Below are positions 36,099-53,401 of a DNA stretch of 64,000 bases, piece by piece. The stretch comes from Boswellia sacra (Eukaryota; Streptophyta; Magnoliopsida; Sapindales; Burseraceae): positions 182,352-246,351 of the forward strand of contig SNVD02006237.1 in NCBI GenBank assembly GCA_013180625.2, given 5' to 3'. The notes under the pieces were generated by a model. It was not told where the DNA came from. It worked only from the letters and a program-made list of their open reading frames with translations, and did no database searches. How positions within the stretch are numbered: position 1 is the stretch's first letter; each line of letters begins with the position of its first letter. The position numbers and the translations under genes are program-made.

Positions 36099-36412
36099 TG
36101 TTAAGGCAGCACATTAAGCTCCTTAATTATTATTATTGGAGAGTTAGTTAAATATGTTAGCTCTACTAGTTTGTTAACCTCTATTCTGTTAACCTCTCTG
36201 CTAATGATTCTACACTAAGGATTAGTTACAAACTTTTGATCTGGTATTTCTACCAAATTCTAGACTTAAAAAAGTGAGGTTTTTCTATTGGTTTTTCCGT
36301 CAACCTATATAATATTGCCATCTAGTAATATGTCATCACATTGAATATAAATAAATTCAAAAGCTTCCTTACAGTAACTAAGTTTAGGGAATTTCAATTA
36401 TCAAAATCTCAA
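36099..36412 (+). repeat. 5' LTR of copia B
   Basis: About 314 bp. Starts TGTTAAGGCAGCAC and the match to the right LTR ends at ATCTCAAG. CTATATAATATTGCC near 36305 could serve as a TATA-type promoter. Confidence 0.85.
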
Positions 36413-36542
36413 GTTGGTATTAGAGCATCATCAGGCCTATGCCATGTCTATTGGATCCTTCAATGGAAATCCCTCAAATGGAAATTTTGGTTTGTCTTCT
36501 TGACTAAGCTTCACTAATGACAACTCACCCTTTGGGAACATA

Positions 36543-39789: not shown

Positions 39790-41070
39790 TGATGCAACAG
39801 TACAAGTTTCTCCTCAAACCAATCGAATTTCCAACACTGATTCTCCACCCTCATCTGAGAATTCATCAAACTCATCAAAAAGCTACTCCAGACCTGAATG
39901 AAACTAATGAAACTCCCACAGAGTTACCTTTTGTTCATCCTACCTCCTCTCGTTATCCTATGATTACAAGGTCAAAGATAGGAATCTTCAAACCAAAAAT
40001 TTATAGCCTTGAACTATGGAGTTCTTTCTCAGAAGCTTTGAAGTTAGTCTTCTGGAAAAAAGCAATGGATGATGAATTCAATGCTTTAATCAAGAATGAC
40101 ACTTAGACATTAGTACCTTATTCTCCACACTACAACCTTGTTGGGAACAAATGGGTATTTACAATCAAACTGAATAGTGATGGTTCAATTCATAGACACA
40201 AGGCCAAGTTAGTGGCAAAGGGGCTTCATCAGAACCCAGGCATAGACTAAAACATACAATCCAATGGTCAAACCTAGAACAATAAGAGTAATTCTGACTT
40301 TGGCTATGTCACAAGGTTAGGAAGTGAGGCAATTGGACTTCAATAATACCTTCTTGAATAGCAATCTAGAAGAGGCAGTTTTCATGGAGCAACCCGAAGG
40401 TTATATAGATCCTACAAAACCAACACATGTATGCAAACTCAACAAGGCTCTTTATGGATTAAAACAGGCACCCAAGGCCTGGTTTGACAAGCTAAAAGAC
40501 ACTATTCTCGAATGGGGGTTCATAAATCTAAGTCTGATTCTTCCCTCTTTGTATTCAAGGAACAAAAGGATGTGATCTACATACCGGTTTATGTAGATGA
40601 CATTCTAATGACTGGGAACAATCCTAAGATATGTCAAGGACTCATTCTTGAGTTAAACAAAAGGTTTGCATTAAGGATCTTGGAGAACTACACTTCTTCC
40701 TTGGCATAGAAGTAAAGAGAGACATTTCAAGAATTTACTTGAGTGAGACTAAGTACCTCACTGACTTACTGCAAAAACTCAAGTTTGATCATTTGAAAGG
40801 TTGTCCTACTCCATCAGTACTCAATCAAAAAATGTCATCAAAGGAAGACTTAAAACCATTCCATGATCTTGCTCTCTATAGAAGCACCTTTGGAGCTCTA
40901 CAATATTTATCCCACACAAGACCTGACATTGCTTATGTAGTCAGTAAGCTTAGTCAGTCGCTTCAAGCTCCTAACATAGGTCATTGGAAAGGAGTGAAGA
41001 GGATACTGAGGTATCTTAAAGCTACAAGTTCCTTTAGCCTTCATATCAAGCCTTATGACAATTACAATAT
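39790..41070 (+). pseudogene. Copia B reverse transcriptase and start of RNase H
   Basis: RT shows KKAMDDEFNALIKND (40060), [20 protein letters not shown] (40325-40390), [18 protein letters not shown] and the active site VYVDDILMTGNN (40590-40625). The part leading to RNase H shows YRSTFGALQYLSHTRPDIAY (40880-40945). The reading is cut at 41070 by the Athila-like insertion. A frameshift lies near 40680. Confidence 0.88.
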
Positions 41071-42483
41071 TGATAAGTGTATATTTATGTATTATTTTCA
41101 TATCAATTCGTCCATGTTTCTTTGCTATATTCCTTGGTATTTTTATGTTTCTGTGTGGTTTTGATGTTTGTAGGAGTTTTGGAGCAACTTGCACAAAAAT
41201 GGAGTAAAACCCTTCATTTTCACCTCTGCTAGTCAACCATCTTCTCGGATTTAATTGTATTGATATACAATGAACCCGATGACATATTATATAACGTTGG
41301 AAAGCTCTCGAAGTCTATTTTCTGGAGAAATTTACGGTTTATAAATCCATTCAGTGTACCAAAAGTTGTAATCAAAACAGTGTGAGAAGTATAGAAATGT
41401 AATTCCACAAATCACTGTAGCATGTATAATACGGGACACTGTAGCAGGTTACTGTAGCAGAGTATTTAAACACATTTTAGGGTTTTATTTTCATAACTTG
41501 AAGAGGGGAGAACGTGGTGGAGGCTGCAGCTCTGGAATTCTCTCATCTCTTGGAGTTCTTGAAGGAGATTGAAGGCTTGGAAAGAGGAAGAACTACAATC
41601 CAAAGAGATTTACATCAAATTTGCTAAGTTTTCCCTTTCCCTTTCATTTTCTGGAATGTCTCCATATTGTATTGTATTTGTACGTTCTGAATATGTGTAA
41701 CTAAATCTGAATTGGTTGAGGGTGATTTCAAAGCCCTTGATATGGTTTTTGTGAAGTTGATTGTGCAAGGAATTGTTATCCAATTCTCTAATTGAAGTTG
41801 CTTGTATTTTCCCATGTTTAATGCTTATGATTGCTTGCTGATTGTATTTGGGTGGCCAACTGAATATAATCTGGATATTGTCTATTGCTAGACTAGAAAT
41901 CTTGATCCGTAATTGTCTTGAATTTCTAATCATTAGTAGCAAAATTGTGATCAGAGATTGCAATTGGAGAATATAACCTAAGTTAAATAATCCGAGCTTG
42001 TGTGTTTATTGCTTAGATCAACCTGTCTTTCTTTTCATAATGCATCCATTGAATTAAATTTAGAGAGCTTGTTCTAGGTTGTTTGATGGATATAGATTAA
42101 ATAAAGAGCCTATTTTATTTAACAACAAAGTAAGGAAAGATTGGGATAACAGAGCTTATTGTTATCTACGGTTGATAATTTTAATGGTGTAATTGGATGA
42201 TAATTCTATAATTAATTCGTAAATCCATATCTTGTGGTGGAGAATGATCCCTTGACCAGATTTGTATCATTGATTAATTCCCATTCCATTTAACTTTGCT
42301 TTGTGTTATTCTTCATTTGCTTTCGTATTAAGTTTAATCAATCAATCAACAAAACCCCCCCTGTTCAGTTTATTATTGCTGGAAAATAACAAATTCAATT
42401 AGATTCAATCCTTGTGGGAACGATATCTACTTATCACTTTATTACTTGTGCGACTAGTATACTTGCTAGTTTTGAACGCATCA
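41071..42483 (+). repeat. 5' LTR of the Athila-like element
   Basis: Begins TGATAAGTGTATATT and ends GAACGCATCA. A TATA-like GAGTATTTAAACAC near 41459 precedes a GGGTTTTATTTTCAT start region. ORFs at 40907-41236 and 41610-41963 on the minus strand are chance readings of the LTR. Confidence 0.92.
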
Positions 42484-42510
42484 AGTTTTTGGCGCTGTTG
42501 CCGGGGATTA
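42484..42510 (+). promoter_or_regulatory. Primer-binding site (tRNA-Asp type)
   Basis: TTTTTGGCGCTGTTGCCGGG starts four bases after the LTR end. The TGGCGC..GTTGCCGGGGA string is complementary to the 3' end of tRNA-Asp with one mismatch, as known for Athila-type elements. Confidence 0.85.
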
Positions 42511-42599
42511 ATTTTCTAATCGATTTGTTATTTTGTTTTCATTGTTGATTCGTATTTTTTTTTGTTTTTCTTTTCTGATTGTTTGTGTTTAGGCCACAT

Positions 42600-44612
42600 G
42601 GCAGTAAACTTCCAACAATTCAGTAGCTGATTTGAGCCACAATTACATTGGAGTGTAAATGAGGTAAGCACTCAAAACATTGAACAACAACTTTTTGAGC
42701 TAACTTCTCTTGTGGAAAACATGGCTGTAGGACATATGCAGAAATCTTATGCATGTGAGGTATATTTTACCATGGAGCATCCAATCGACATGTATCCAAC
42801 TATGCAAGGAGATATGGAACAAGCCAATGCCATGGATGGATTTCTAGGACAAACAAGTCAATGGTATGATCCCTTCTCTAACACTTACGATGCTGGATGG
42901 GAAGATCACCCTAATTTCGGTTACTGAAATCATCAACCAATCGTCCCAAATGCCATACCAAATCAACTACAAGGTTTTAATCAACCTCGAGTGCAGCAAC
43001 CATTTCAAATACAACCACCACCAATGCCACAACCAGCACCACAACCAGCTCCAGAAAACTCAGGTATGTCACTCCAGGATATTGTTAATGCACTTGCCAC
43101 TAACACAATGCAATTCCAGCAGGAAACTGGGGCAAGTATCCAAAACCTGGCAAATCAAATGGGACAATTGGCTACTAGCATGAGCAAATTTGAGGGCCAA
43201 GGCTCAGAAGAATTATCTTGTCAAACGGTGATCAATCCAATAGAGAATTCTTGTGCAATAACTTTGCAAAATGGAGAGCAATTAGATGTCCTGCCAAAGA
43301 AATCACAAACTGATGAAGGAGATGACACCACTTCCACCATGAACAAAACACTGACTTCTCAGGTAAATCCTATAACTCCCATTCCTTCATATGTTTCTCC
43401 TCCACTTTTTCCTAGTAGATTTGCAAAATCGAAGGAGGAACAAGAACAAGAAATCCTGGAAACTTCTCACAAAATCGAGGTAAATATACCACTTCTGGAT
43501 GCTATCGAGCAAGTACCTCGTTGTACAAAATTTCTCAAGGAGTTATGCACCAACAAGAGAAAGTTGAAGGGAAATGAGAAAGTAAGTGTGGGGGAAAATG
43601 TTTCAGCTGTATTGCAAAGAAAAATTCCTCCGAAATGCAAAGATCCAGGTACGTTCACCATTCCATGCACCATTGGTAATACCAAGTTTGAAAGAGCTAT
43701 GTTAGATTTAGGAGCATCTATTAATGTCATGCCATATTCTATTTATGCTTCTTTAAATCTTGGACCTTTTGCGAAAACTGGTATTACCATTCAGTTTGCT
43801 GATCATTTTAATGCATATCGAAAAGAGTTGTGGAAGATGTGCTTGTGCAGGTGAATCAATTGGTTTTCCCAGCAGACTCTTATGTTCTTGAAATAGAGGA
43901 TGAGACATCTCCTAATCTAACACCGATTCTTATAGAGAGACCATTCTTGAAAACTGCTAGAACCAAGATTGATGTTCATGATGGCACTCTCACCATAGTG
44001 TTTGATGGCAAGGTGATCCGTTTCAATATTTTTGAGGCAATGAGGTACCCTAGTGACTTATATTCTGTTTTTGTAGTTGACGTTACTGATTCTCTGTCAC
44101 AACAATGTTTTGAGTTAACTTGCAAGAATGGATTGGATGTAGCTATTAGTGAGCACAAAGGAACAGAAAATTCTAATGAATCAAGAATTCTGATACAAGT
44201 GTCTAAAGAAGTGAAGGAAGTTCTGGCAAGCTTAGATGAGACTATAGCCATAACCATAAGCAGGTATGATGTTTCGTATATTGAAATGTCTTTATCTAAT
44301 GAGAAACTTCTTCATTCTGTGATGAAGGCCAATACCGTGGAGCTTAAGCCACTTTCAGATTATTTGAAGCATGTGTTCTTGGGTGACAAAGATCCTTTGC
44401 CAATTACAATAGAAATGGGCCTTGCACCACTAAAAGAAGAGAAACTCGTCCGAGTACTTAGAGATCACAAAATAGCTATTGGGTGGATGATTGCTAACAT
44501 CAAAGGCCCAGCCATATGCATGGACCGTATCTTGTTAGAAGAAGAATCCAAGCCCATTAGTGAAGCACAGCAGAGATTGGACCCTCCCATGATGGAACCA
44601 ACGTCGGGCTAA
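42600..44612 (+). pseudogene. Athila-like gag C-terminal part, protease and pol linker
   Basis: Three open pieces: 42712-42927; 42991-43854, starting with a Gln/Pro-rich stretch and then DIVNALATNTMQFQQETG and IQNLANQMGQLATSMS, as in Athila gag; and 43830-44612. The aspartic protease active site appears as MLDLGASINVMPYSIY (near 43697), and the region ends with RPFLKTARTKIDVHDGTL (near 43937). The next part, AIGWMIANIKG and RILLEEESKPISEAQQRLDP, normally leads into RT. Here it breaks after PPMMEP (about 44595) and joins 3' non-coding sequence (GGGAGGCAACCCAATG). A frameshift separates the last two pieces. No RT domain exists anywhere in the element. Confidence 0.88.
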
Positions 44613-45058
44613 GGACGTTAAACCAAGTGCTTATTGGGAGGCAACCCAATGTTTTTGAAAAATAAATAAAAAAAGACAAGAAAAATAAAATAAGGTAGTA
44701 ATGATCAATTTTTGTGTCTCGAGGAGATTCCTTTCGTAGTCCATCAAATTGATCAGGTTTTATCTCTCTTTGCCATCTGTCTCATTTGTTTTTATTTGTT
44801 TTTACTTGTTTTTGACTTTTGTTTGTTATTGTGTTGTTATCTCTTTTATGTGTCTTTAGTTTCGTTTCTGCTCTTTTCTTTTCCTTTCTATTGTTTAATT
44901 TGATTATTTCGTACTTCGAATTCATTTGTGCAACAGCTTGAGGAAACATTCAAAGGGGAGCTGAAACCATTGCCTGAAGGTTTTTTGAAACGTGTACATC
45001 TTGGAGAAGAACAGACTCAATCATATTTTCGGTAATATCTCTCCTTTTCTTCTCTCCA
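44613..45058 (+). other. Athila 3' non-coding segment with a relic of the pol linker
   Basis: Starts with GGCTAAGGACGTTAAACC and GGGAGGCAACCCAATG, normally found after pol in Athila elements. A T-rich stretch follows whose 63-codon ORF (44712-44903) is hydrophobic by composition. At 44936-45034 the reading QLEETFKGELKPLPEGFLKR then VHLGEEQTQSYFR resembles the linker at 44339-44395 (ELKPLSDYLKHVFLGDKD). So a second copy of the protease-RT linker has been pasted just before the virus-like ORF. Confidence 0.55.
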
Positions 45059-45613
45059 ATGGATGCCGATATCTTTCTGTCGAACCTTCGTAAATATTTC
45101 TCTTCACTTCCTCAAAATGCTGTGTTTAAAATTTACAAAATACGAATGACTAGACTTTGGGTATTGATGCTCTTAAATCTGCCTGCGGATATCCGATGGC
45201 TTATCGAAGCCAAGGTAAGATTGTCCGGTGAGCCGGACATTAATCTCGCAAAATACATGCCTGGTCTAGGAAAGAGCTACTACGCCAAGAGGCGAAGAGC
45301 GAAAAGGTTACAAGTATGTTATAAATGTGCTAGATGGAATTGTAACCAGACTTGTCGTTCATTAGGTTTTGCGTCCAGGAATAGAGAAGATAAACTTTCA
45401 TTTATTAAGAATGGTTTGAGTAATGAGTCGCTGGATAATGTTTTGCTAACTCTCGAGTCACATTCTTGTGGACTTGTTCAGCGTGAATTGCTTAATCTAT
45501 GGACACAATTTCGTGATGAATTGCAGTGTTATAGTCTAGGGAATCTGACTAAAAACGACCCTGTTTGCCAGTTTATAAGAAAACTGGATGGGAAGCAAAT
45601 CCCCGACTCATAG
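45059..45613 (+). CDS. Zinc-finger ORF resembling plant-virus nucleic-acid-binding protein
   Basis: An open 184-codon frame with an ATG start at 45059. A short helical N-terminus with LPADIRWLIEAKV (residues 41-53) is followed by a strongly basic segment, YAKRRRAKRL (75-84), and a four-cysteine cluster at C87, C90, C95 and C99 (spacing CX2C X4 C X3 C). This order, a hydrophobic segment, GLGKSYYAKRRRAK and then the cysteines, resembles the small cysteine-rich nucleic-acid-binding proteins of carla-, allexi- and mandariviruses (Pfam Viral_NABP), some of which suppress RNA silencing. The C-terminal half (120-184) has no match I know. The spacing of the last two Cys differs from carlaviruses. It is not part of the usual Athila gene set. 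It may be a captured viral gene or an element-specific protein; I cannot decide without a search. Confidence 0.5.
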   Translation: MDADIFLSNLRKYFSSLPQNAVFKIYKIRMTRLWVLMLLNLPADIRWLIEAKVRLSGEPDINLAKYMPGLGKSYYAKRRRAKRLQVCYKCARWNCNQTCRSLGFASRNREDKLSFIKNGLSNESLDNVLLTLESHSCGLVQRELLNLWTQFRDELQCYSLGNLTKNDPVCQFIRKLDGKQIPDS

Positions 45614-45842
45614 AAGGCGTTTCAGCCGTTACTGGACGTAAAACCAGAGGAAGATGTGAGCCACAATCACAACTACTTGTATATTTGAATGTGTGTTGTT
45701 GTTGTCGAATTTTATTTCTTTCTTGTTTCGTTTGATCTGATTATCAATGTTGTTTTTGTGTTGTTGTTGTTTGTTGATTTTGTTTGTTTTAATTTCAAGT
45801 TTTCTTTTTGACAAACCATATGACTACCCTATGGCATAAGTA
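45614..45842. other. Spacer between the zinc-finger ORF and the tandem array
   Basis: T- and G-rich (many TTGTT units) with no ORF of interest. It contains GACGTAAAACCAGAGGAAGA, reminiscent of Athila 3' sequence. Confidence 0.4.
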
Positions 45843-46045
45843 CACGTGGGAGACAAGTGTGGAGGTTTTGTCAACCTCCACCGAAAGTATATCTCTACTT
45901 TTCATGCTTCACGTGGGAGACAAGTGTGGCGGTTTTGTCAAACCCCCGCCGAAAGTGTATCTCCATTTTCCATGCTTCACGTGGGAGACAAGTGTGTAGG
46001 TTTTGTCAAACCTCGCCGAAAGCATATCTCATTTTTTCAAATTTT
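45843..46045. promoter_or_regulatory. Three tandem units, each with a CACGTG box and a hairpin
   Basis: Units start at 45843, 45910 and 45978 (67 and 68 bp apart), each opening CACGTGGGAGACAAGTGTG. CACGTG is the plant G-box bound by bZIP and bHLH factors. Each unit then has an inverted repeat around TTTTGTC. Unit 1 forms a perfect 9-bp stem (GTGGAGGTT with AACCTCCAC). Unit 3 forms AGGTTT with AAACCT. Unit 2 pairs GGC with GCC and GG with CC. Unit stems differ in sequence but partly keep pairing. The array ends about 190 bp before the LOG start codon. A promoter or RNA-structure role is inferred. ORFs through it are chance readings. Confidence 0.6.
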
Positions 46046-46234
46046 GGGGCGATAAATCTGCATCGAGCAACCCCCACCGAAATTATGTCCCCATGTGTCA
46101 AATTTGAGAGTTTTACGTGTGTATATATCCATTTTGCATATTCTCAAATGTCATTTTATAACCTGTCTTGCACTTGAATCGCATAATACCTAACGCACAT
46201 CATTATCTTGCACAAGTTTAGAGCACTTTTAGAA

Positions 46235-46884
46235 ATGGAGAAAACACCAATTCGGCGATTCCAAAATATATGCGTATTTTGTGGATCGCAATTTGGTAAA
46301 GATGGAGAGTTTACAACAGCAGCTCTTGATCTTGGTAGGACATTAGCTGCGAGGGGTATTCATTTGATTTATGGAGGGGGTAGTCTTGGGTTAATGGGGT
46401 GTGTGTCGACAGCTGCATCCTTAGGAGGAAGCAAAGTTCTCGGCATTATCCCTAAACCATTAGCTGTACGAGATATCGTAGGCAACACCATGGGGGAAGA
46501 GTTACAGGTTTCTAGTATGCATGAGCGTATTGCACATATGGTCATTAAATCTGATGCATTTATAGCTTTGCCCGGTGGTTATGGTACATTAGAGGAGATA
46601 TTTCAAATCACCTCTTGGGCACAGCTAAACATCCATCGGAAACCCATTGGTTTGTTAAATGTCAATAATTTTTTTGATGGTTTGTTGTCTTTTCTTGATC
46701 AAGCAGTAGAAAAAAATTCATCTCACAGTCAGCGAGGCAAATCCTGGTTACAGCTTCAACTGCAGGGGAGTTAATTGACAAATTACAAGAATTCGTCTAT
46801 TCGCCTGATTCAACAATGGCTCGGATAGATTGGTTTGGAGAAGGCAATAAGAGGCGTAAACTGGATTTAACGCTCCATCTGTAA
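46235..46884 (+). pseudogene. LOG: LOG-type cytokinin riboside 5'-monophosphate phosphoribohydrolase, intronless, one frameshift
   Basis: LOG enzymes release active cytokinin base from its riboside monophosphate in one step in the cytosol. From ATG 46235 the frame reads MEKTPIRRFQNICVFCGSQF, then LIYGGGSLGLMG (44-55), VLGIIPKPL, MHERIAHM (95-102) and ALPGGYGTLEEIF (111-123), then SWAQLNIHRKPIGLLNV. The nucleotide-binding PGGxGTxxE motif and the counterparts of the catalytic Arg (R98) and Glu (E121) are intact. The frame breaks after DQAVEK (160) at a run of seven A (46710-46716). One base is missing; the other frame continues with family-like sequence to a stop at 46882-46884, giving full family length (about 215 residues). 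Plant LOG genes have several introns and this copy has none, so it derives from an mRNA. It sits inside the retroelement, behind the tandem array. It could be a very young pseudogene, a truncated product or a homopolymer sequencing error. Confidence 0.93.
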
Positions 46885-48851
46885 TCTCTATCTGCTGGTT
46901 TGCTTTGTTTTTTGTTTGCTTTCTTTTTATTGTGTTTATTTGAGAGTTTTCATGTTATTTCTTTTGAGCTTTTTCAGGTTATTTCTTTCGTCCCAAGTAA
47001 TATTTTCTAATCTTGGTTTTTAGAGTGGTGGCTTAAAAAGTGTAAGTCCTCTTGAAACGCATTTTGGATCTCTTTAATCCATAATGGCTGAATAAGGAGG
47101 CTAACTTCTAAACTTTTTAAACCCATTCTAACTTACTTGTTTTTGTTTGCTGGTTTGTTGGACTTTGTTATTTTATTAGTAAGTTTGGTTTTATGTAATT
47201 TAGAGTTGTTATGTGTTATCTTTATCAGTTTCGATTTAAAAAAATTATGGAAAAACCTGAGAATGGCAGAATATGGGGTTTCCTTAACCCTTGAAACGCA
47301 TTCTTCCTTAATAAATCTGTAGTTTGTTTATTTCAAGTTGTTTGAAGTGTCTTGTTTCTTGTTTTGTTCTTTCATAATAAGGTATATAGGTTGAAAACCT
47401 TAAGTCTGCGGGCTACTGGTCCTAAGGATTGTTGAAATATACAATCTTGACTCAGGTGTAACAACGCCACGTACCTCTTTTCTTGCATTTTGTGGGTCGA
47501 TGATAAGATAATGATTGAATTAAGAATAACTCTTGGAAAATGATAAATGATGCATGGATCTGTGTGCTTGAAATGTTTATTGGTTTTCGCTTTGCTTTTG
47601 ATTCCTTGCGCAACATTGAGCACTGAGCTATTATCACTGAGTTATTTGTTCACTTAGAGAAAGTTTATGTAATTTAAATGTTTCTTCAGATTTCAATGAA
47701 TTCTAGAACTTGTTTGATGGTCACTCGAGGCGAAATCCTAGACTGTGCAACATTGGGGAAATGATTTAGGCCATCTTTGGACCGTTTGAGCCTTAATAGC
47801 CAACCTTGACTGAAATTGATCCTAGTTACCCCTTTGAGCCTTTGTAAGCCTTTTTCTTTGTTAACTCACTAAAAGATTTCCTAACCTCAAATGAATTTGC
47901 TCCAAACAGTTTATCCCTTACCTATGAGCATATAGATCATTCACAATTAAATTTTGAGCTATGTTCTGGTTTTGGGAAGTTAGAGGAGGTTAGGATGTGT
48001 CATGAGCAATGCAAGTGAGTTCTGCTGTGTTTAAAAAAAAAAAGAAAAAAAAAAGTGAATCTGTACTTATCGTCCACGTACTTACACATTGAGGACAATG
48101 TGTTGTTTAAGTGTGGGGGAGGGGAAGTGTAATAAAAAAAAAGAAAAAAAAGAAAAAAAAAGAGAAAAAAGAACAAAAGAAGAAGAATAAGAGATCTATA
48201 CCCTTAAGTGTTCTTAAAAAGAATGAGACAACAAAGTGTGGGGGTGTAGTTTTCTTTTGTTTTCTACAAAAAAAAAAAGATTGAGTGTTCTAAATAAGTT
48301 TGGGGGAGTAATCTGGCGAATTGAAATGAAGTTGTGTTATGGGGTTGAGCTCTACATAATCTTGAATGATTTTATGTGTTTGTGGGTGATTTAAGCCTAA
48401 TTATTATCCTTTATCATACCTTCACCCAAGCCAAACGTTACAAGCTTAATAAAGTCCTACTTGATCCTTGGTGTTGTGCATGTCTACATTAGTGGAGAGT
48501 GACTTGAAAAGCAGGCCTATGGAGTTCATTTATACACACATCTTCAATATTAAATATGATTCATTTTTATGCATAAACTCATCCGGGTACAAGTGATTAG
48601 GTGAGAATGGCTCTACACACACACACTTGAGGAATTGAAGTGAAGCGAAACTAATCTTTAGATAAAATTCTTGATCAAGTGCATTATTTTGAAGTTTTCC
48701 TTGGGTTATAATTAAGTACAATCTTTGAGGCCTATTTGCAAGTTGAAGCATTTGTGTGTTTTTAATTTTTCTTTGATTCTGTTTCGGTTTAGTTTTGTTT
48801 CATATCGTTGTAGTTGCTCGAGGACTAGCAAAGTCTAAGTGTGGGGGAATT
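46885..48851 (+). other. Athila-like 3' non-coding region with repeated polypurine tracts
   Basis: Contains phrases typical of Athila-group 3' regions: TTTGAGCCTTAATAGCC near 47787, and ATTGAGGACAATGTGTTG near 48088. Purine tracts of the form AAGTGTGGGGG occur at 48109-48122, 48234-48246, 48297-48307 (AAGTTTGGGGG) and 48837-48850; the last abuts the right LTR and is the expected plus-strand primer. A/G-rich filler (48125-48195) lies between them. No ORF is convincing. Confidence 0.65.
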
Positions 48852-50263
48852 TGATAAGTGTCTATTTATGTATTATTTTTATATCAATTCGTCCATGTTT
48901 CTTTGCTATATTCCTTGGTATTTTTATGTTTTTGTGTGGTTTTGATGTTTGTAGGTGTTTTGGAGCAACTTGTACAAAAATGGAGTAAAACCCTTCATTT
49001 TCACCTCTGCTAGTCACCATCTTCTCGGATTTAATTGTATTGATATACAATGAACCCGATGACATATTATATACCGTTGGAAAGCTCTCGAAGTCTATTT
49101 TCTGGAGAAATTTACGGTTTATAAATCCATTCAGTGTACCAAAAGTTGTAATCAAAACAGTGTGAGAGTATAGAAATGTAATTCCACAAATCACTATAGC
49201 ATGTATAATACGGGACACTGTAGCAGGTTACTGTAGCAGAGTATTTAAACACATTTTAGGGTTTTATTTTCATAACTTGAGGAGGGGAGAACGTGGTGGA
49301 GGCTACAGCTCTGGAATTCTCTCATCTCTTAGAGTTCTTGAAGGAGATTGAAGGCTTGGAAAGAGGAAGAACTACAATCTTAAGAGATTTTCATCAAATT
49401 TGCTAAGTTTTCCCTTTCCCCTTCATTTTCTGGAATGTCTCCATATTGTATTGTATTTGTATTGTTTCTGAATATGTGTAACTAAATCTGAATTGGTTGA
49501 GGGTGATTTCAAAGCCCTTGATATGGTTTTTGTGAGTTGATTGTGCAAGAAGTTATTATCCAATTCTCTAATTGAAGTTGCTTGTATTTTCCCATGTTTA
49601 ATGCTTATGATTGCTTGCTGATTGTATTTGGGTGGCCAACTGAATATAATCTGGATATTGTCTATTGCTAGATTAGAAATCTTGATCCGTAATTGTCTTG
49701 AATTTCTAATCATTAGTAGCAAAATTGTGATCAGAGATTGCAATTGGAGAATACAACCTAAGTTAAATAATCCGAGCTTGTGTGTTTATTGCTTAGATCA
49801 ACCTATCTTTCTTATCGTAATGCATCCATTGAATTAAATTTAGAGAGCTTGTTCTAGGTTGTTTAATGGATAGAGATTAAATAAAGAGCCTGTTTTATTT
49901 AACAACAAAGTAAGGAAAGATTGGGATAACAGAGCTTGTTGTTATCTACGGTTGATAATTTTAATGGTGTAATTGGATGATAATTCTACAATTAATTCGC
50001 AAATCCATATCTTGTGGTGAAGAATGATCCCTTGACCAGATTTGTATCATTGATTAATTCCCATTCCATTTAATTTTGCTTTGTGTTATTCTTCATTTGC
50101 TTTCGTATTAAGTTTAATTAATCAATCAACAAAACCCCCCCTGTTTAGTTTATTATTGCTGAAAAATAACAAATTCAATTAGATTCAATCCTCGTGGGAA
50201 CGATATCTAGTTATCACTTTATTACTTGTGCGACTAGTATACTTGCTAGTTTTGAACGCATCA
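48852..50263 (+). repeat. 3' LTR of the Athila-like element
   Basis: Begins TGATAAGTGTCTATTT and ends GAACGCATCA. It matches 41071-42483 with a few substitutions and single-base indels. Minus-strand ORFs at 48862-49218 and 49423-49743 are LTR readings shared with the left LTR. Confidence 0.92.
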
Positions 50264-50760
50264 AATATCACTAGTTTCTCGGGTGCTAATTGGGCTTGCA
50301 GCATCGAAGATAGAAAATCCATTAGGGGGTATTGCGTTTTCCGTGGTGATACATTAGTTTCCTGGCCATCTAAGAAGCAAGCAGTGGTTTCCAAATCCAG
50401 TACAGAATCAGAATATCGGGCATTAGCATTAGTAGCTACTGAAATAATTTGGCTGTAGTCTTTCTTTAGTGAATGTCACTGTCAATCAAGTTGATGTCCT
50501 ATAACCTAGTGTGACAATACTAGTGCAAGTGCCCTTGTTTCTAACCCAGTACATCATGCCACGACAAAGCATATTGAAATCGACATTCACTTTGTCACAG
50601 ACAAAGTCCCGCAAAAACTACTTGAGGTTCGCTATGTACCCTCTGGTGATCAAGTTGTCGACTGTCTAACAAAGGTTTTGGGGACACCACAGTTTCAATT
50701 CTTTTGATCTAAACTTGGAGTCATAGAAGTACCCTCTTGCTTGAAAAGGGGCTGGTGTTG
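50264..50760 (+). pseudogene. Copia B RNase H, resumed after the nested insertion
   Basis: Directly after the AATAT duplication the copia reading resumes with SFSGANWACSIEDRKSIRGY and VSWPSKKQAVVSKSSTESEY, the RNase H core, to a stop at 50456. Beyond it HHATTKHIEIDIHFV and YVPSGDQVVDCLTK (to about 50680) are the usual end of copia pol. A purine-rich GAAAAGGGGCTGG precedes the right LTR. Confidence 0.9.
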
Positions 50761-51082
50761 TGTTAAGGCAGCACATTAAGCTCCTTATTTATTATTAGCG
50801 GAGAGTTAGTTAAATCTGTTAGCCTCTGCTAGTCTGCTAACCTTTATTCTGTTAACCTCTCTGCTAATGATTCTACATTGAGGATTAGTTACAAACTTTT
50901 GAGCTAGCATTTCTACCAGCTTCTAGACTTAGACAAGTGAGGTTTTTCTATTGGTTTTTCTGTCAACCTATATAATATTGTCATCTGGTAATATGCTGTT
51001 ACATTGCATATAAATAAATTCAGAAGCTTCCTTACAGTAACTAAGCTAAGGGAATTTCAATTATTAAAATCTCAAGTCATCA
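50761..51082 (+). repeat. 3' LTR of copia B
   Basis: 322 bp, starts TGTTAAGGCAGCACATTAAG. It is followed by TATCA, the second copy of the target duplication, then by monooxygenase intron sequence that matches copy A near 8795. Confidence 0.88.
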
Positions 51083-52026: not shown

Positions 52027-53401
52027 GGGAAAATTGAAAAAATAGACACAATTAGGGATCCTAGTTGAAATTTGGACACATCCTGAAAAATTTTCATGCC
52101 ATAGACACTTTCTTGACAAAAAAACCCAATTACCCTTATCTATTCAATTTTTTCCCAGAGCCTTATTTCCCTCTCTTCAGAGAAAAATTACCGAAACCCA
52201 TCGACACCGCTGGAAACGTAAACCAACACGAGCATCGGTTGAGGATAGAAGCATCAAACAAGACGATGCAGAGAGAAGCACCCATCGACACGGAGGGTCC
52301 CTAATTGTGATTTATTTGGTTGTTATTCGTTAGATTTGATTTAGTTTTTAGGGAATTTAAATTCGGGATTTGAGTTTCCGACGAATTTGTAAACTTATTT
52401 ACGGATAAATCGAGTGTTATATATGATTTTTGTGGTTTGATGCATGTAAAAATCGACGAAACGAGTTTTGAATCCAGTGTCATATCGCGCTGAAGAAGAC
52501 ACTCGACAACTACCTGTCGAGTCGTGTCGAGTTGTGTAATGTCTAGTGTCGAGTATTTGTCGAGTGGTGAAATGTCGAATGTCGAGTGTCTATCGAGTGG
52601 TGAAATGTCGAGTGTCGAGTGTTTGTCGAGTGGTGTCGTGTCGAGTGTTGAAGTGTCGAGTGTCGAGTGTTTGTCGAGTGGTGGTGTAGTGACAAGTGGT
52701 TGTGTAGTGTCAAGTGTCGGATACTTATCGAGTGTCAAGTGTCGAGTGTCGAGTGGGGTAGTGTCGAGTGGTGTTGTGACGACACTTGACACAACACAAC
52801 GCGACACTCGACACTCAATATTTCACCACTCGACAAACAATCGACACTCGACATTTCACCACTCGATAAACACTCGACACTCGACATAACACAACTCGAC
52901 ATAACTTGACAGGTAGTTGTCAAGTGTTGAGTGTCTTCTTCAGCGCGATATAACAGTGGATTCTGGACTCATTTCATCGGTTTTCACATGCATCAAACCA
53001 CAAAAATCAAATTATAACACTCGATTTATCCCTAAATAAGTTCACAAATCCGTCGGAAACTCAAATTCCCTAAAAATTAAATCAAATTTAGCGAATAACA
53101 ACCAAATAAATCACAATTAGGGAACCTCAATATCGATGGGTGCTTCTTTCTGCGTTGTCTTACTTGATGCTTCTATTCTCAGGCGATGCTCGTGTTGGTT
53201 TGTGTTTCGAGCGCTGTCGATGGGTTTCGGTAATTTTTGACTGAAGAGGGAAATAAGGGGAATAAGGCTTTAGGAAAAAATTGAATACATAAGGGTAATT
53301 GAGTCTTTTTATCAAGAAAGTGTCTATGACATGAAAATTTTTCAGTATGTGTCCAAATTTCAACTAGGGTTCTTAATTGTGTCTATTTTCTCAATTTTCC
53401 C
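52027..53401. mobile_element. Giant foldback element: 0.48-kb inverted arms around a TCGAGTGTCGAGTG core
   Basis: The ends are GGGAAAATTGAAAAAATAGA and, reversed, GGGAAAATTGAGAAAATAGA. The exact 9-bp duplication TTTGTTTTT lies on both sides (52018-52026 and 53402-53410), so it is probably a Mutator-type foldback. The arms (52027-52515 and 52910-53401) match over nearly their full length with about one change in ten. The core is built of TGTCGAGTG units in one orientation to about 52785 and of the inverse, CACTCGACA, from about 52790. No transposase is encoded. Transcription through it would give a hairpin of several hundred base pairs. ORFs in the core are low-complexity readings. Confidence 0.85.
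52500..52925. repeat. Inverted tandem array of TGTCGAGTG
   Basis: About 25 irregular copies of GTGTCGAGTG or TTTGTCGAGTGGTG occur up to 52785. The inverse (CACTCGACA, ATTTCACCACTCGACA) follows to 52925. The left part is about twice as long as the right, so the array has expanded or contracted since the palindrome formed. Confidence 0.85.

Follow-up and report, generated by a model that had tools for sequence, protein, structure and literature searches.

Results

Structure of the element and its insertion site

The window analysed here is a stretch of 64,000 nucleotides of the Boswellia sacra genome (contig SNVD02006237.1, positions 182,352 to 246,351 of the forward strand). Positions 41071-50263 of the window form one LTR element of 9193 bp (9.19 kb), which lies inside a copia RNase H. 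Its 5′ LTR (41071-42483, 1413 bp) and 3′ LTR (48852-50263, 1412 bp), both with TG...CA ends, enclose a gag and protease region, a gene related to viral nucleic-acid-binding proteins (NABP) and a LOG reading (cytokinin riboside 5′-monophosphate phosphoribohydrolase-like), all on the plus strand.

The initial annotation had described matching LTRs with a common AATAT target duplication. We place the duplication at 41066-41070 and 50264-50268, and the two LTRs are indeed 97.0% identical over 1415 aligned columns (K2P 0.0275). At a rate which we take to be 1.3e-8 per site and year, the window copy would be about one million years old. In four other copies with two LTRs, K2P between the LTRs ranged from 0.0086 to 0.051. 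Exact 5-bp target duplications were present in four of the five two-LTR copies checked, that of L023 being off by one base.

When the flanks were joined computationally, a single open copia RNase H frame was obtained over the insertion site. Because of this restored frame we regard the element as a single nested insertion, in agreement with the earlier description of one insertion of about 9.2 kb splitting one copia RNase H. A direct repeat of about 317 bp (36099-36414 and 50761-51077, 90.5% identical) may perhaps represent the LTRs of the host copia element. The window also holds an inverted repeat within 52027-53401 (52027-52648 versus 52782-53401, 85% over 637 columns), located outside the LOG element.

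The sequence read at 42490-42507 is the primer binding site, presumably of the tRNA-Asp type. It is followed by the gag and protease region (42631-44612, plus strand) with three open frames (42631-42927, 42928-43854 and 43812-44612). None of these three window frames gave a Pfam match; the homologous reading of copy L021 matched Asp_protease_2. At 44597-44600 lies the junction of a pol deletion, where about 2.6 kb present in copies L016, L018, L019 and L021 are missing. The NABP-like gene (45059-45613) is open and encodes 184 aa. Further downstream, three repeats of about 67 bp follow one another head to tail (45843-46040) and contain one CACGTG apiece (at 45843, 45910 and 45978), and a TATA-like element (46122-46129), with a putative promoter role, precedes the LOG start by 113 bp. 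The intronless LOG reading (46235-46884) ends with a stretch coding for KRRKLDLTLHL (46849-46881), that is, a basic patch and an EAR-like LxLxL. No gene was identified in the remaining internal region (46885-48851, about 2 kb), whose last part, next to the 3′ LTR, is a purine-rich tract. The NABP gene at 45059-45613 and the C-terminal LxLxL go beyond what had been annotated initially.

Identity and state of the LOG reading

A 179-aa frame at 46235-46774 contains the motifs VFCGS, YGGGSLGLMG, MHER and PGGYGTLEE, and the C-terminal part of LOG continues in another frame up to 46884, owing to a frameshift near 46710. The reading had been called nearly full-length. As a statement of homology this is correct, judging from the motifs and the Pfam matches (PF03641, Lysine_decarbox, E 4e-34, plus PF18306, LDcluster4), but the copy is frameshifted and the whole protein is not encoded.

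Against TIGR00730 (curated cut-off 96 bits), the LOG of copy L009 scored 178 bits and the window piece 161. Against the cytokinin-specific equivalog NF058542, which belongs to a model library made for bacteria and archaea, the L009 LOG reached 119 bits, below the cut-off of 300. Fourteen related LOG proteins from other sources largely retain the length and the catalytic motif and show the general LOG signatures, including PGGYGTLEE; R98, E120 and E121 are invariant in the comparison of the element LOG with related proteins. Judged by model score and PGGxGTxxE, the element protein is a member of the LOG family.

The NABP-like partner gene

The product of the 45059-45613 gene matched the Pfam families Viral_NABP (PF05515, E 9e-11) and Carla_C4 (PF01623, E 4e-5). 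The PF05515 match reached 42.5 bits, with a gathering score of 23, and spans the basic and cysteine-rich part of the protein, the first 40 or so residues lying outside. Its relatives amounted to 396 proteins at E <= 0.001. The 29 that were aligned are 54-71% identical to the window NABP, and 26 of the 30 aligned NABP proteins match Viral_NABP at E <= 0.001.

A single protein from Rhamnella carries both Carla_C4 and LOG domains, and another from the same genus reads like the end of a gypsy integrase fused to NABP. Contigs of 8723 and 4511 bases turned up in the lists of NABP and LOG relatives alike. This suggests that the two sets of relatives may share these contigs; coincidences at shorter lengths are likely due to chance. 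Two IMG/VR scans for NABP relatives returned pattern matches, none of which was confirmed.

With its zinc-ribbon-like cysteine motif, the element NABP is, as far as such motifs and profile scores can tell, kin to the nucleic-acid-binding proteins of betaflexiviruses. According to PMC4472227, a gene of this type follows the coat protein gene on its 3′ side in vitiviruses, carlaviruses and some trichoviruses, and its product is an RNA-binding zinc-ribbon protein that suppresses silencing in the case of grapevine virus A. By analogy, we infer that the element protein may suppress silencing as well.

Kinship with viral proteins leaves the direction of transfer to be considered. The element NABP may not have been captured from a virus, and the genes of betaflexiviruses may instead descend from those of such elements or from a shared plant source. 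The large size of the plant family, with its 396 proteins and 29 aligned relatives at 54-71% identity to that of the window, speaks for such a course of events, which we consider possible, though with somewhat more doubt than confidence.

Copies in the Boswellia sacra genome

The assembly searched has 638.6 Mb in 7431 contigs, and what was read in it (copia and gypsy elements, split LOG genes) is typical of a flowering plant. With the 650-base LOG DNA as a query, the best 40 scored of 2571 first-look candidates, window included, were 98-100% identical. With the L009 LOG protein, the best 150 places scored of 14758 candidates showed 94-100% identity; 149 of them span residues 1-216 and one 2-216, and 134 are without an in-frame stop, in a ranking that favours intact copies. 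The numbers of first-look candidates (2571 and 14758) are not copy counts, and the 150 protein places partly overlap the 40 DNA places. A score of 456.8 bits is common to 31 of the best 150 places, a pattern that one subfamily with an identical LOG protein would leave if it had multiplied recently.

The first copy set consisted of 20 of the 40 DNA places, whole or partial. Adding the window copy and the second LOG that L013 contains gave 22 LOG readings, of which 10 are open over 216 aa, in a set picked by LOG similarity. The upstream spacer (whole or partial) and the downstream region adjoin LOG in all 22 readings, and NABP stands beside it in 17. The five readings without NABP are explained by a contig end (L020 and L024), an LTR cut (the first LOG of L013, and L017) or a cut upstream (L011). 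In the second set, picked by non-coding similarity, NABP adjoins LOG in 20 of 21 copies.

Because the 40 scored places are 98-100% identical and LOG lies within the same element in the copies fetched, it is no chance insertion. The proposal that the element carries LOG and spreads it is thus borne out, since other genomic copies hold LOG at the same place. A late chance insertion into the window copy was also considered, and is ruled out by this shared position.

Copies L016, L018, L019 and L021 contain about 2.6 kb extra between gag-protease and NABP. In L021, Pfam matches over three frames follow the order Asp_protease_2, RVT_1, RT_RNaseH, Integrase_H2C2 and rve, with both carried genes present. 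This is the PR-RT-RNaseH-integrase order of Ty3/gypsy elements; the window copy is without pol. The same pol readings were found in L018, in more broken frames, and the pol-bearing copies examined are partly broken themselves. The deletion junction (44597/44600) is uninterrupted in the window copy and in L009, L012, L015, L023, L026, L027 and L028. Because it is common to the window copy and seven others, we conclude that one pol-deletion derivative has multiplied. An additional RNase H (aRH) is given in PMC6317226 as the mark of Tat, the sister clade of Athila. The Pfam matches of L021, a single copy, include no further RNase H family. The window copy, which has lost pol, probably belongs to a Ty3/gypsy family of the Athila type.

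Origin of the element LOG

The genome was searched with 47 residues of Arabidopsis LOG3, and the best 150 places were scored. Of these, 137 are unbroken over residues 1-47, which is the element pattern, and 13 begin at residue 12 or 13, as at an exon edge. Eight of the 13 host-like places were fetched, and in all eight LOG is split over several exons. The contrast drawn by the initial annotation, between an intronless element LOG and split plant LOG genes, therefore holds for every host gene read.

In a tree, the eight host LOGs (approximately stitched, 170-217 aa) and seven canonical LOGs were separated from 33 element-type proteins by a 100/100 branch. An earlier tree without host genes had likewise set the canonical LOGs apart at 100/100. 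Among the host genes read are close kin of the LOG3 type as well as L053 and L054, a pair that stands further out; all eight fall with the canonical LOGs. The named taxa among the best 120 relatives of the window LOG are Xanthoceras, Reevesia, Diplodiscus, Populus and Parasponia. That proteins of this type reside in elements in other plants too is borne out in part, by the two Rhamnella proteins and by the LOG domain recorded in gypsy consensuses of Citrus and poplar (PMC9289625). Because the element-type LOGs, which come from several plants, form a group of their own at 100/100, we regard the element LOG as an old intronless lineage, and its capture looks old and not like a recent pick-up from Boswellia sacra. 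Thus, where LOG was said to have been captured and spread by the element, carriage and spread stand, but the 100/100 tree argues against a recent capture from this host. A recent origin from any host LOG gene read is ruled out by the tree.

One could still suppose that the element-type clade is an intron-bearing host LOG subfamily from which the elements took theirs recently. A weakly matching host subfamily could lie beyond the best 150 places, and the genes read cover 8 of the 13 host-like places. All eight, including the LOG3-type kin and the outlying L053 and L054, nevertheless join the canonical LOGs at 100/100, and we find such a recent source improbable.

The C-terminal tail and the region upstream of LOG

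Tails were surveyed in the 120 best relatives of the window LOG, 91 of which have at least 205 aa. LxLxL occurs within the last 14 residues in 70 of these 91 element-type LOGs, mostly behind a basic patch, and is kept in 39 of 40 copies of the window's family. Among 120 canonical LOG1/3-type proteins, none has a terminal LxLxL and six have it elsewhere; other canonical LOG subfamilies are represented in this comparison only by host genes. Seven of eight host LOG tails are without terminal LxLxL. The exception is L056, whose tail looks frameshifted by comparison with its close paralogue L055.

LxLxL is listed in PMC6283911 as one of two EAR patterns. The element LOG tail thus has the sequence of an EAR motif, which is short and permissive. 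Such a candidate EAR tail on a hormone-activating enzyme would join known parts in a new way.

The tail also bears on the question of whether LOG serves the element's own biochemistry and not host cytokinin. The substrate of the enzyme could then be a different nucleotide monophosphate, or the protein could have a structural or RNA-associated role in particles. LOG proteins with like residues differ in their main product, according to PMC11593424, and the element tail is missing from the canonical LOG1/3-type proteins examined, which would fit such a role. On the other hand, the general LOG signatures, PGGYGTLEE among them, are kept, and a hormone-activating fold would be an odd structural choice. 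We judge this alternative unlikely, although it deserves to be taken seriously.

The three CACGTG are present in 27 of 39 copies. Across copies, CACGTG and TATA showed no clear excess conservation when compared with their surroundings. The CACGTG repeats and the TATA-like box possibly constitute an internal LOG promoter.

Selection on LOG and NABP

Since a choice of copies by LOG similarity biases the analysis of LOG, the second sample was built from places resembling the non-coding segment 46890-47490 (best 40 scored of 3568 candidates, 20 fetched). With the window this gave 21 copies, of which 20 were analysed, L029 having no qualifying match. The neutral N/S expectation was derived from the NABP-LOG spacer, in which 18 second-sample copies provided 178 changes.

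In this sample, LOG variants found in at least two copies amounted to N17:S43, or 0.14x neutral (p 1e-13), whereas those private to one copy amounted to N95:S33, or 0.99x neutral. For NABP, shared variants were N4:S23 (0.06x neutral, p 2e-10) and singletons N82:S31 (0.93x neutral). Open readings were found in 3 of 20 copies for LOG and 6 of 20 for NABP.

For robustness, copies with more than three frameshifts were removed (four for LOG, one for NABP) and indel-adjacent letters were masked. In the second sample filtered in this way, shared and singleton variants still differed (Fisher p 2e-5 for LOG, 1e-7 for NABP), also without transitions (p 0.02 and 0.009, respectively). Pooling both samples gave p 2e-4 for LOG (36 copies kept, 4 dropped) and 6e-7 for NABP (33 kept, 2 dropped). 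When transitions were excluded from the pooled data, p rose to 0.09 for LOG and 0.02 for NABP.

The first sample, whose copies had been picked for their similarity in LOG, gave a mean pairwise dN/dS of 0.45 for LOG. Compared with the non-coding spectrum, LOG singletons stood at 0.51x (p 0.003) and shared variants at 0.39x (p 0.08); the values for NABP were 0.55x (p 0.01) and 0.08x (p 4e-9). All p-values assume independent variants, and element copies are related. For this reason we rely more on the contrast between shared and private variants in one and the same set of copies. Amino-acid changes are avoided among the shared variants but not among the private ones, which indicates that both proteins were selected during element replication. 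LOG and NABP thus appear, from their variant patterns, to have been under selection while the element replicated, and NABP is the clearer case.

These results can be set against the simplest alternative, in which a LOG cDNA happened to land in a single element and has since been replicated with it as a functionless passenger. Many copies are broken, with LOG open in 3 of 20 in the second sample, and the window copy is frameshifted, as one would expect of a passenger. Such a gene would hardly show shared variants at 0.14x neutral beside private ones that are not reduced. Against a passenger also stand the 14 related proteins from other sources, most of which preserve length and catalytic motif, and the 134 of the best 150 places, in a ranking that favours intact copies, that are without an in-frame stop. 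We therefore consider a functionless passenger very improbable.

Discussion

The explanation that we hold to be probable is an Athila-type family with gag, PR, RT, RNase H and integrase plus two carried and selected genes, the NABP-like gene and LOG; the window copy would be its pol-deleted member. From the kept family motifs we infer that the element LOG acts on cytokinin. It would produce free-base cytokinin in the cell that transcribes the element. The hormone would favour cells that divide, belong to a meristem or precede the germline, and insertions arising there could be inherited. NABP would shield the element RNA from silencing, by analogy with its viral relative, and the LxLxL tail may recruit LOG to TOPLESS-type corepressors. 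LOG could be expressed from an internal promoter, with three CACGTG repeats and a TATA box directly upstream, and NABP perhaps from a separate or spliced RNA.

Several observations count against this explanation: the small number of open copies in the second sample, the broken LOG of the window, the partly broken state of the pol-bearing copies read, first-sample singletons below neutral together with a weak signal for shared LOG variants there, the loss of contrast for LOG once transitions are excluded, the ordinary conservation of CACGTG and TATA, the shortfall against NF058542 and the permissiveness of so short a motif as LxLxL. A bolder version is more doubtful. It would see an old two-gene set for host manipulation, made of a virus-type silencing suppressor and a LOG with a corepressor-recruiting tail, in several eudicot families and even in pol-less derivatives, where it keeps cells dividing, element RNA unsilenced and insertions bound for the germline.

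The use of extra genes in plant retrotransposons is mostly obscure. Here there are two such genes with recognisable relatives, in many copies at varied stages of decay. Because of these relatives and copies, and because the contrast between shared and private variants indicates selection, it becomes testable whether plant retrotransposons, like viruses or tumour-forming bacteria, alter the hormone state and silencing in their cells.

The present case is not the first LOG in a mobile element. Steinbauerova et al. (2011, Genetica 139:1543) reportedly found two Athila-like elements with a LOGL4-like extra ORF, and their abstract is not known to mention a neighbouring NABP gene, a C-terminal LxLxL, selection acting on LOG or a pol-less derivative with both genes. 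A screen of 121 angiosperm genomes, citing Steinbauerova 2011, records a YgdH/LOG domain in Ty3/gypsy consensuses of Citrus and poplar (PMC9289625). LOG in gypsy elements was therefore already in print. All these elements are alike in having a LOG-type reading inside a Ty3/gypsy element. The section of PMC9289625 on Citrus and poplar likewise makes no mention of an NABP partner, LxLxL, selection on LOG or a pol-less two-gene derivative. Searches of the open-licence literature turned up no paper in which NABP is linked to an LTR element, and none in which LOG has an EAR-like tail. The NABP pairing, the LOG tail and the selection test look new.

An orchid Ty3/gypsy lineage with an AlkB m6A demethylase (PMC9289625) is similar in that a gypsy lineage keeps a carried gene, but the gene differs; for AlkB, in vitro work demonstrated that the protein binds RNA and acts as a demethylase, whereas the activity of the element LOG is a predicted one. 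The NABPs of betaflexiviruses (PF05515, PF01623) resemble the element protein, which is above the gathering score in its basic and cysteine-rich part; they differ in that the element NABP is encoded in a chromosomal LTR element and has about 40 N-terminal residues beyond the Pfam match. AlkB domains are also found in betaflexiviruses. TR-GAG and other non-autonomous LTR elements have kept gag and lost pol, and are presumably mobilised in trans. The window element is like them in having gag without pol, and differs by its two carried genes. Agrobacterium ipt and Rhodococcus fas are parasite-borne genes that make or activate cytokinin. The likeness lies in a genetic parasite with a cytokinin gene; here, the parasite is the plant genome's own retrotransposon.
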